Below, one piece after another: positions 495 through 28,451 of a stretch of DNA of 33,847 nucleotides. A program made the translations under genes and the position numbers. Within the stretch, counting starts at the first letter, position 1, and the number at the start of each line of letters is the position of its first letter. Below the pieces are notes generated by a model. That model made no database searches and had not been told where the DNA came from. It saw only the letters and a program-made list of their open reading frames with translations. Source of the stretch: Clostridia bacterium (GTDB lineage: Bacteria > Bacillota > Clostridia > Christensenellales > Aristaeellaceae); NCBI GenBank assembly GCA_030530315.1, contig JAUMVG010000038.1, positions 1 through 33,847 on the forward strand. Reading direction: 5' to 3'.

Positions 495-853
495 CGGAAA
501 TACCCTCTGTCGATGTATTGCCCGCTGACGCCCCAGGCGGTGATGTCCTCGTACTTGATGTAGACGTTCCCGGCGGGAATCCCCAGCACGTCCCCAAAGG
601 CGCGGGTAACCTCGGCGGTGAACTCGGGATAGCCACAGTGCCCCTCGTTGCCGAAGATGGCGGCGTCGATATAGGCCATGGGCTGGGTATCGTCGCCCCG
701 CAGCCAGAGATGGCCTTCGGGTTCAAAGGCCAGCAGCAGATACTCCTCGCTCTTGCCGGGCACAAGTTCAATGGCTTTCCCCATGCGGGCCTTGAGCTCT
801 GCCTCCTGTTCCCGGCTGACGGGCCGGTTCACCTTGCAGGTGATGAAAGGCAT
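491..853 (-). CDS. MIF/phenylpyruvate tautomerase family protein
   Basis: A 120-residue protein, close to the roughly 115 of the macrophage-migration-inhibitory-factor family. Mature MIF-type tautomerases use the N-terminal proline after Met removal as catalytic base; here the protein starts MPFITCKVN, giving Pro2. The family's internal pattern is visible: a basic residue before SEEYLLLAF, and a C-terminal VYIKYEDITAWGV resembling VYINYYDMNAANVG of MIF. The start at 853 is chosen over an in-frame start at 871 because GGAGGAG lies 6-7 bases before it and it gives Pro2. The gene overlaps the end of the alpha/beta hydrolase gene by about 25 bp and the next gene by 4 bp. Natural substrate unknown; keto-enol tautomerisation is the family activity. 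Confidence 0.85.
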   Translation of the reverse strand: MPFITCKVNRPVSREQEAELKARMGKAIELVPGKSEEYLLLAFEPEGHLWLRGDDTQPMAYIDAAIFGNEGHCGYPEFTAEVTRAFGDVLGIPAGNVYIKYEDITAWGVSGQYIDRGYFR

Positions 854-1800
854 ACGCGCTCCTCCTCCCATTCCTTTACCAACGCCAGCAGCTTGTCCGC
901 AACCTCCTGCTCCTTTTGCTGGTAGGTGTGGCCGGTCTTTTCGATGAAGATCAGCTTGTTCCGCTTCGCCGTGGGCATGTGGTCGTTGATGTTTTTCAGG
1001 AACCCCGCCGGATCGCCGTAGGTGAAGCGGTCGTAGGCGCCGATCAGCAGCGCGCCGGTGTGGGTGATCTGCGAGACCTGGGTGAAGTCGGCGTCCTTCT
1101 CCACGTGGACGTTGTTCAGCATGTCCGTGAAAGCCCAGTCATAAGCGGTGTTGGCGATGCACCGCACCCAGCCCATGAAGTAGAAGGGCAGCAGCTTGTT
1201 CCCGTCGCCGCGCTCCACCTGCTGGCGGATCAGTTCACGCTCATAATCGGTGACACCGGACATCATGTGGGTCAGGTTGGCGGGGCTGAACAGGATGAAG
1301 TGTTCTACTCTCGGGTCGTGGTGCCGCGACAGGTACCAGATGACCTTGTTCGCACCGAGGGAGTGCCCGCCCAGGATGATGTGCTTATAGCCCGCCTGCT
1401 CCGCGTAGTCCAGATAGGCCTCGATGTCCTCGTCGGTATACGCGAAGCGCTCGTTGCAGGAGCCGACGATCTCTTCTTTACCTGTCACGACGTTACGGGA
1501 ACGCACCGCGTCCATGGCGTCGTTGGTCTGGGCATAGATGAAGTCGATGCCGCCCGCGTTCAGGGTGCCTCCAAAGTTGTAGTAAAACGGATTGGAGTAG
1601 AAATTGCCGTGGATGCCCGTGATGGCGATGACCACGGTGTCGGCCTTTTGAGGTTGGAAACCCGCAGGGTTTTCAAGTTTTTCTCCGTGAGAAAAACCGC
1701 GAGCGGGCGAATCGGAGATTCGGTCCTCGCGCCTCGGCGCGTCGAATAATACGCCGTATAATACAGAGCCACGCCTGGTGGCGATATGCAGTTCCTTCAT
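829..1800 (-). CDS. Alpha/beta hydrolase with an in-frame palindromic insert
   Basis: A 323-residue alpha/beta hydrolase. The nucleophile elbow GGHSLGA puts the catalytic serine near residue 147, and the C-terminal EKTGHTYQQKE supplies the likely catalytic histidine. The opening strand motif VVIAITGIHGNFYSN forms the oxyanion region. Between the first strand (GVLFDAP) and KADTVVIAI sits a stretch of about 30 residues (roughly 20-50) rich in R, D, S, G and P. Its DNA (1656-1741) is a series of short hairpins; this looks like an insertion that kept the frame. The start ATG overlaps the DUF1934 stop (ATGA) and is preceded by AGAGGAAG. Probably an esterase or small-molecule hydrolase; substrate unknown. 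Confidence 0.8.
   Translation of the reverse strand: MKELHIATRRGSVLYGVLFDAPRREDRISDSPARGFSHGEKLENPAGFQPQKADTVVIAITGIHGNFYSNPFYYNFGGTLNAGGIDFIYAQTNDAMDAVRSRNVVTGKEEIVGSCNERFAYTDEDIEAYLDYAEQAGYKHIILGGHSLGANKVIWYLSRHHDPRVEHFILFSPANLTHMMSGVTDYERELIRQQVERGDGNKLLPFYFMGWVRCIANTAYDWAFTDMLNNVHVEKDADFTQVSQITHTGALLIGAYDRFTYGDPAGFLKNINDHMPTAKRNKLIFIEKTGHTYQQKEQEVADKLLALVKEWEEERVCLSSPAR
1656..1741. repeat. Array of short hairpins inside a coding sequence
   Basis: Consecutive inverted repeats: GGAAACCC/GGGTTTTC (1656-1663 with 1667-1674, one G-T pair), GTTTTTCTC/GAGAAAAAC (1677-1685 with 1689-1697, perfect), CGAATC/GATTCG (1708-1713 with 1717-1722, perfect) and CGCGCC/GGCGCG (1728-1733 with 1736-1741). 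The first three have 3-base loops. The block lies wholly inside the alpha/beta hydrolase gene without breaking its frame. Such density of perfect stems is not expected from coding sequence and suggests a palindromic element. Confidence 0.7.
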
Positions 1801-3266: not shown

Positions 3267-3369
3267 CCGCCGCCCACGCAATGCTTTGCGGGTCGGCGGC
3301 AGCGCCGCGCTGGCATCCGTAGGATGCGCGCGGGCTGGTCGCGCCTGCGCGTAGGCGCATTGGCGCGAC
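3267..3369. other. Hairpin-rich leader between promoter and oxidoreductase gene
   Basis: The roughly 140-base leader of the oxidoreductase operon is crowded with inverted repeats: CCGCCG/CGGCGG (3267-3272 with 3294-3299, enclosing CGCAA/TTGCG), GCATCC/GGATGC with a GTA loop (3313-3327), and two mutually exclusive stems, GTCGCGCC/GGCGCGAC (3338-3345 with 3362-3369) or GCGCCT/AGGCGC (3341-3346 with 3353-3358). It may be an RNA control region or an inserted palindromic element similar in style to the one at 1656-1741. Confidence 0.5.
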
Positions 3370-14684: not shown

Positions 14685-14699
14685 GTGGCCGCGCACGCA

Positions 14700-14724
14700 A
14701 AAGGGCGGCCTTGCGCCGCCCTTT
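14700..14724 (-). terminator. Strong hairpin with T-tract in the leader of the radical-enzyme operon
   Basis: AAAGGGCGGC and GCCGCCCTTT pair perfectly with a 5-base loop. Read on the minus strand it ends in four T. It lies only 45 bases before the reductase ATG, leaving no room for a promoter between them. It is either a terminator that isolates the operon from lacI read-through or a leader attenuator. Confidence 0.6.
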
Positions 14725-14924
14725 CAGGATGTTGACAAAGTCAACAGACTGTCAGTCCGCTGAAAAGCCTGCAAGGCAAGGCGGCAAGCCTGCAAATAAG
14801 GGAGCTTACCCGGTCGTAAGTGACCGCCATTTGCAGGCGCTGCCAACACAGCAAGCAAAAAACTCTTCCGGCTGTATTTCGTCTGCGGAGATTTTTGCGT
14901 TTGCGGTCTTTGTCAGCGGTCTGG
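14725..14924. repeat. Probable repeat element between two matching hairpins
   Basis: About 200 bases without a credible gene. It holds the perfect palindrome TGTTGAC-AAA-GTCAACA (14730-14746), several copies of GCCTGCAA or its complement, and runs such as GCAAGCAAAAAACT. Composition differs from the flanking genes. It is bracketed by two nearly identical GGGCGGC/GCCGCCC hairpins. It has the look of a dispersed noncoding repeat; no second full copy is in this window. Confidence 0.45.
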
Positions 14925-25795: not shown

Positions 25796-25871
25796 CTGTT
25801 CCACATCCTCATTTGTTCTTCGCCCGTGCTTGCAGAAGCGAGGGGGCGGGTTGCCAGCGCTAATTTGGGAT

Positions 25872-26062
25872 TTGTCGGGCTGGCGCCCAATTGAGAATTG
25901 AGAATGGAGAATTGGGAATGGTGGTGCAAATCCCTTCGGGATTTGTTTTGATTACGCCCCACAATTTGTGATTCTACGATGATTTGCCACCATTTAATCA
26001 GAGAAATCCGTAAGGATTTCAACATAAATTCTCAATTCCCAATTCTCAATTAATTAAATTCC
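25872..26062 (-). repeat. 191-bp palindromic repeat, copy 1
   Basis: An AT-rich intergenic unit. It carries nested hairpins CAAATCCC/GGGATTTG and GAAATCC/GGATTTC, and imperfect terminal inverted repeats built from AATTGAGAATTG-type words. It matches the unit at 28245-28435 in opposite orientation with only about five substitutions by eye. It lies between the UPF0597 and GH112 genes. Its ends coincide with loss of similarity, giving sharp borders. Confidence 0.85.
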
Positions 26063-26065
26063 AAG

Positions 26066-28183: not shown

Positions 28184-28244
28184 TCCTTATCCTCCGTCCT
28201 TTTGTTGTCGGCGTTGGATACTGAGATTCAACCACAGGACAATT

Positions 28245-28435
28245 GGAATTTAATGAATTGAGAATTGGGAATTGAGATTTTATGTTGAAATCCTTACGGA
28301 TTTCTCTGATTAAATGGTGGCAAATCATCGAAGAATCACAAATTATGGGGCGTAATCAAAACAAATCCCGAAGGGATTTGCACCACCATTCCCAATTCTC
28401 CATTCTCAATTCTCAATTGGGCGTCAGCCCGACAA
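28245..28435 (+). repeat. 191-bp palindromic repeat, copy 2 (inverted)
   Basis: The same unit as 25872-26062 on the opposite strand, ending in the same bases on both sides. Differences are single bases only, scattered over the length. It lies between the zinc dehydrogenase and GH112 genes. Together the copies enclose a 2,564-bp segment containing only the GH112 gene. Confidence 0.85.
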
Positions 28436-28451
28436 CTTCCAAGTTGTCCCA

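Follow-up and report, generated by a model that had tools for sequence, protein, structure and literature searches.

An 84-bp palindromic segment in the reading frame of a clostridial hydrolase-like gene is very probably a copy of a dispersed, lineage-restricted mobile family

Results

The hydrolase locus

The window, which is the whole stretch of 33,847 nucleotides of clostridial DNA analysed here, carries a gene for an alpha/beta-hydrolase-like protein with five matches in Pfam, every one under the curated cut-offs. Near the start of this gene, at nucleotides 66-149 of the coding sequence (codons 22-50) and between ...GVLFDA and QKADTVVIAITG, lies a palindromic element built of three abutting arms (Table 1). 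The host assembly is fragmented, with an estimated contamination of 6.11%, and the gene order common to the contig and the sister genome G021 argues that the contig is part of the host genome. A 149-aa frame was also noted at 1797-2246 of the window; the corresponding place in G021 is too short for such a frame.

Table 1. Positions of the element, its parts and related features (window coordinates unless a contig is named).
Feature	Position	Strand	Description
Alpha/beta-hydrolase-like protein gene	829..1800	-	323 aa, open frame
Left flank of the element	1650..1651	+	GA, the usual family flank
Three-armed palindromic element	1652..1735	+	84 bp; GG, arm 1, arm 2, arm 3, CCTC
Arm 1	1654..1676	+	TTGGAAACCC-GCA-GGGTTTTCAA; 10 positions with one G.T
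Arm 2	1677..1697	+	GTTTTTCTC-CGT-GAGAAAAAC; perfect 9-bp stem
Arm 3	1698..1731	+	outer 6-bp stem CGCGAG/CTCGCG; nested inner 6-bp hairpin CGAATC-GGA-GATTCG
Family 1 repeat	3267..3369	-	separate three-hairpin repeat, about 112 bp, intergenic
RAYT-like Y1 transposase	G000:C90:16128-16457 (L106)		flanked by GGAATAGGGGACGGTTCC-type repeats

The ends of the element rest on the match to covariance model R2 (see below), on a search for chains of three arms, and on the same length and ends in insertions in pheS and in an aldo/keto reductase (AKR) gene. A sequence-only reading had placed palindromic DNA in an open frame at 1656..1741. The palindrome and the frame stand, and the extent has been redrawn; of the four hairpins then described only three arms were found, the supposed fourth mixing the end of the element with its flank. 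A length of 87 bp, drawn from the sister comparison, was considered and replaced by 84 bp on the basis of the filled and empty sites in pheS and AKR.

When bases 1640-1760 were folded as DNA, none of 200 dinucleotide shuffles was equally stable on either strand (z of -4.8 and -3.7); folded as RNA, 2 of 200 shuffles reached that stability on the plus strand and none of 200 on the minus strand. Abutting three-arm chains numbered five in 584,811 bp of host genome (the window and 37 stretches, one all-N stretch having been dropped), against 2, 0, 0, 0 and 0 in five Markov shuffles. All five are bounded, within a base, by GG on the left and CCTC on the right, and a further 20 host stretches (two dropped for N) yielded one clear chain and a doubtful one. 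No Rfam family was matched at the element at gathering in the window, L010, L021, L089 or L103, nor at E<=1 in L234, L247 or L291.

The hydrolase gene was matched in 4 of the 60 genomes searched (its own included), with a full gene in only one of the 27 congeners, G021. The sister protein has 294 aa, shares 92-93% identity, keeps the same neighbours and is without the segment. At the DNA level the two loci are 88% identical over their left part, with a net 87 bp fewer at the segment in G021, the only close relative. This leaves a difference of one further codon, and the precise site before insertion is one that we infer. The roughly 30 extra residues suggested earlier thus become 28 codons by the family ends, or 29 net against the sister.

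Alignment with homologues, proposed as a check on the first reading, agreed with it. Among 63 subjects, two of them weak relatives and 61 of them loci of named genomes, 54 could be aligned across the insertion site and none has the segment: of the 33 residues at 21-53, at least 26 are missing in 49 subjects and 19-25 in the remaining five. The homologues differ by a few residues in length at this point, and the segment, judging from the alignment, appears to lie in a linker that is short and length-variable among them, on which account the hydrolase probably still works.

The frame, read earlier as intact, is open through the segment along all 323 residues. This openness argues against a dying gene in which an in-frame insertion was mere luck, as do a dN of 0.039 and a dS of 0.40 against G021 (dN/dS about 0.1) and a window branch without a marked excess of amino-acid changes (7, against 5 on the sister branch and 9 unresolved). 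Such a reading is unlikely, even though any stop-free 84-bp insert keeps the frame and another copy in the host genome sits in a broken AKR gene. The low dN/dS says little on selection after the insertion, because the sister (88% DNA identity) is too distant to date that event. No sign of decay is seen in the gene, which might also be the case if the insertion is still too recent.

The element family

A search of the host genome with the block itself, as first suggested, would have failed as a test. A 201-bp BLAST query with the window block and a 22-nt pattern allowing up to three mismatches matched only the window copy, because the arm sequences change while their pairing stays. Families of this kind can escape BLAST, and a structure-aware search is needed for them.

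MAFFT alignments of divergent copies were poor, and an alignment of three alike copies (A5) was used for a first covariance model, R1. The second model, R2, was built from 25 copies, 24 taken from congeners plus L105, which lies in another part of the host genome; the window and AKR copies were excluded. In the R2 alignment (A9), changes on both sides were seen in at least one copy for 25 of the 33 proposed pairs, a count that leans towards the structure because A9 was fitted to the model. The covariation score of 0.371 compares with 0.149 (sd 0.012) in shuffled alignments, was reached by none of 500 shuffles and gave way to values of at most 0.109 when the partners were slid. The structure is in agreement with this slide control and with the arms found by the model-free chain scan; arm 2 is poorly aligned in A9, with 58% of its cells paired. 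An AAACCC-N3-GGGTTT core recurs in arm 1 of many copies.

R2 matched the window, which lay outside its training set, at 1652-1736 with 56.2 bits (E 7.2e-9), while the R1 match was weak (17.1 bits, E 0.21). A match of E 7e-9 at the predicted ends to a model trained on other copies, together with the lack of any equally folding shuffle among 200 of DNA, makes it scarcely conceivable that the segment is ordinary variation in the length of a protein loop with hairpins due to chance or codon bias, notwithstanding the few residues by which homologues vary at the site.

At E<0.01, R2 recognized nine distinct places in 890,855 bp of host genome, the window and L105 among them, and four of the nine gave an additional weaker match on the opposite strand. 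In a whole-genome scan of 28 genomes of the genus, with up to 150 candidates scored per genome and overlapping matches counted, R2 matched 26, as did R1 at E 0.1. The matches were most numerous in G007 (69), G009 (50), G008 (43), G014 (27), G024 (25) and the host (23), and zero in G022 and G025. A training copy had come from 22 of the 28 genomes; among the other six, G004, G005, G021 and G027 match R2. Stricter filters were applied to the order and class samples, with 15 and 11 candidates, respectively, scored per genome among the matches listed; R2 was found in 3 of 296 genomes of the order (its own, the congener G019, and G305, which belongs to a different genus within the family) and in 1 of 391 of the class (its own). 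One strong copy (L234) matched nothing when searched against plasmids and phages. The element is a new family, nearly confined to one genus of Clostridia and one genome of another genus. Other copies in genes or gaps had been named as support for an inserted palindromic element, and it was a model built without the window copy that found them in 26 of 28 genomes; with the segment also missing from the homologues, that reading is supported.

Copies were sought in 94 of 99 loci (L234-L331 and L198), L235, L260 and L329 being duplicate places and L258 and L279 left out. Model matches were about 77-90 bp long, with 82-85 bp in 77 of 100 distinct copies. Divided by three, the lengths leave 0 in 42 copies, 1 in 38 and 2 in 20, that is, no frame skew, in classes affected by an uncertainty of 2-3 bases at the right end. 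The printed copies start with GG (or AG), GG starts being favoured among the matches because R2 aligns to GG, and end with CC plus 2-3 varied bases. The general plan is therefore GG, three contiguous arms with compensatory changes, and a CC-containing right end.

Two other repeats of the window had been likened to the element. The family 1 repeat resembles it in general style only and is a different repeat family; a single family for both was considered and rejected, R2 having no match at the family 1 block. Family 1 was matched in 22 of the 28 genus genomes, and in the sister G021 the corresponding flanks are separated by only a few bases. A family 1 copy that breaks the frame of an AKR gene is common to G000, G021 and G023 and absent from G025 and G010. 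As for the 191-bp repeat, it is larger, and at other places in the host genome the element has inserted into it. A number of copies of both the element and family 1 were observed at the ends of congener contigs, as if breaking the assemblies.

Insertion sites and copies within genes

Filled and empty sites were compared in two genes. For pheS, filled in G001 and empty in G021, the difference is exactly 84 bp, and the AKR gene of the host genome has an 84-bp copy at a site where four congeners have no insert; no target duplication was found at either. The AKR copy contains a stop in the reading frame; a different repeat had already disrupted that gene. At the ten empty pheS sites read, the insertion point is GA in seven (codon GAG or GAA) and GC in three (codon GCG). 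In the left flank of the family, the base at -1 is A in 90, and the base at -2 a purine (A or G) likewise in 90, of the 97 distinct copies (of 100) with a flank, one N having been met at each position.

The element was also found within other repeats, namely the 191-bp repeat in L091, L103 and L152 and, accompanied by family 1, a further hairpin repeat in L089, L101 and L105, these host repeats being recognised by eye from unfilled copies. A copy of the 191-bp repeat at about 14690-14900 of the window resembles an empty site.

Long ORFs are spanned by the element less often than by random positions from the same loci, as judged from 89 of 117 matches. With the flanks joined, 44 of the 89 elements span one compared with 64-76 random positions, and in the original sequence 20 compared with 53-58, so many elements are intergenic.

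In-frame, stop-free copies were nevertheless observed in PheS of G001, G005 and G008, where the insert splits ...TCANC[KR]G and GCRMCKGTGW. The pheS gene was matched in 27 of the 28 genomes, in three with the insert and in 24 as two abutting pieces without it. The remaining matches in the three carriers are all short and come from the leading repeat or the element, so that no second pheS was seen in them. As pheS is an essential gene, loss of function is hard to reconcile with an insert in the sole pheS observed in each of three genomes. Immediately upstream of pheS in G001 is a T-box-like leader that scores 86.9 bits, below the Rfam cut-off of 93. The first 70 or so residues of the G001 pheS frame (about 466-675 of L247) match dozens of places in that genome (58 matches for the whole query) and represent a further repeat family, highly copied there.

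A GltD-like protein carries the element in frame in G001, G007 and G008, as does GltB in G001; GltB of G019 has one too, at a different position in the protein. The length of 84 for the GltD-like element was taken from one element end to the other, on copies other than the third, rather than against an empty site. In L270 of G001 the gltB and gltD-like genes are adjacent, with an in-frame element in each. Nine ORFs with an in-frame element were compared with Pfam, and in four of them (one PheS, one GltD-like and two GltB) strong domain matches, read in the frame of the element, surround it or adjoin it directly. The other five were not counted: L284, L268 and L302 are without a Pfam match, L249 has one only before the element, and the sole Pfam stretch of L259 starts inside its second element.

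Across the 100 distinct copies the mean number of stop-free frames is 3.43 of 6, compared with 2.39 (sd 0.14) when base pairs were permuted within each copy (the highest of 60 rounds being 2.75). The copies are related by descent, so this excess suggests rather than proves selection for readable inserts. The same excess tells against the notion that ribosomes bypass the segment and leave it untranslated, as happens to palindromic elements in the mitochondria of Magnusiomyces. Conserved genes with stable hairpins inside them, pheS among them, would suit a bypass, but the gene insertions that could be resolved have a length divisible by three (84 bp), and the PheS, GltD-like, GltB and hydrolase copies, though not the AKR copy, are open in the frame of the gene; bypass would require neither. 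Taken together, bypass is very unlikely.

Discussion

The whole of these observations is very probably best explained if the segment is a copy of a dispersed, non-autonomous, mobile palindromic family whose in-frame survivors are translated. As an insertion it probably adds about 28 residues without breaking the proteins, translation being deduced from the open frames. In such a scheme the folded strand, or its RNA, would be recognised and inserted in trans by an enzyme, and most insertions into genes would be lost by selection. Inserts that keep the frame (84 bp being 28 codons) and fall in tolerant loops would survive and, on translation, give the protein about 28 additional residues. A cloverleaf kept by compensatory change, the absence of target duplication, the two-base preference on the left and the restriction to one lineage point to recognition of a folded strand in trans.

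A more specific proposal is that the three-arm cloverleaf, and not the sequence, is recognised, that the small size (28 codons at the resolved sites) and the excess of stop-free frames are adaptations to entering protein-coding genes of the host, pheS among them, and that the mover is a non-Y1 enzyme that makes no duplication. Recognition of structure would let the arms diverge while pairing stays. The proposal is tentative and on balance doubtful, the more so because only 42 of 100 lengths are multiples of three, which lowered our confidence slightly.

Movement of a REP-like element by a Y1 transposase (IS200/IS605 or RAYT), as is thought for GTAG REPs, is rather improbable. The host genome does encode one Y1 protein, RAYT-like from its sequence, and the hairpins, the absence of target duplication and the fixed dinucleotide on the left would all fit. 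In the one Y1 locus read, however, that gene is flanked by an unrelated repeat of the GGAATAGGGGACGGTTCC type, and the copies are without a terminal GTAG. Matches to the Y1 family PF01797 occur in 16 of the 28 genomes, with none in the richest, G007 and G009 (69 and 50 R2 matches), whereas the element-free G022 and G025 have 7 and 2; over all 28 genomes, copy number does not follow PF01797 matches (Spearman -0.26, p 0.18).

The best-known palindromes to have spread through protein genes as coding sequence are those of Rickettsia, and a reduced intracellular life is one explanation that has been offered for them. The genus studied here has genomes of 2.4-3.9 Mb and probably comes from the rumen, judging by its RUG names. 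An unrelated family with the same habit in such a genus would show that no reduced intracellular lifestyle is needed.

The likeness to Rickettsia palindromic elements (RPEs) drawn in the sequence-only reading holds for the way in which they work, with copies both in frame and intergenic, but does not extend to membership, the architecture and the host being different. RPEs are small dispersed palindromic repeats that occur in gaps and in frame inside conserved genes, where they are read as peptide (PMC10969869; PMC2229807), and they are the closest functional match to the element. In one case, a Rickettsia guanylate kinase, the protein is reported to be translated and active with its insert (PMC2229807). 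The length stated for RPEs is 105-146 bp (PMC2229807) or about 150 bp (PMC10969869), with long stem-loops and terminal inverted repeats, whereas the present element is mostly 82-85 bp, with three short abutting arms and GG/CC ends, and belongs to Clostridia, not Rickettsiales. The distinction was drawn from these descriptions.

According to PMC3733652, GTAG/CGTC REPs and REP dimers are structured repeats that sometimes lie inside ORFs, in which case 20-30 residues are encoded by dimers or groups; REPs are palindromes of 20-40 bp with a terminal GTAG or CGTC tag, in contrast to three arms and a GG start. The words Firmicutes and Clostridi are absent from the main text of that paper. MITEs such as RUP, Correia/NEMIS and ERIC are likewise non-autonomous, small and dispersed, but are described in PMC2229807 as having terminal inverted repeats and usually target duplications; the element has no duplication at its two resolved sites and only GG/CC at its ends. 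The Magnusiomyces bypass elements are also palindromic inserts inside protein genes, in this case mitochondrial, and stay untranslated (PMC6649704), whereas the element keeps the reading frame. Among the papers listed by full-text searches, no title was on coding palindromes in Clostridia, which is weak evidence of absence, as subscription journals are mostly outside the literature searched.

PheS occurs with and without the insert in close relatives, which makes the tolerance of the protein directly testable. Elsewhere in the window, an inverted repeat pair was noted at 25862-26064 and 28243-28445, with arms of 203 nt that are 96% complementary and lie 2178 nt apart.
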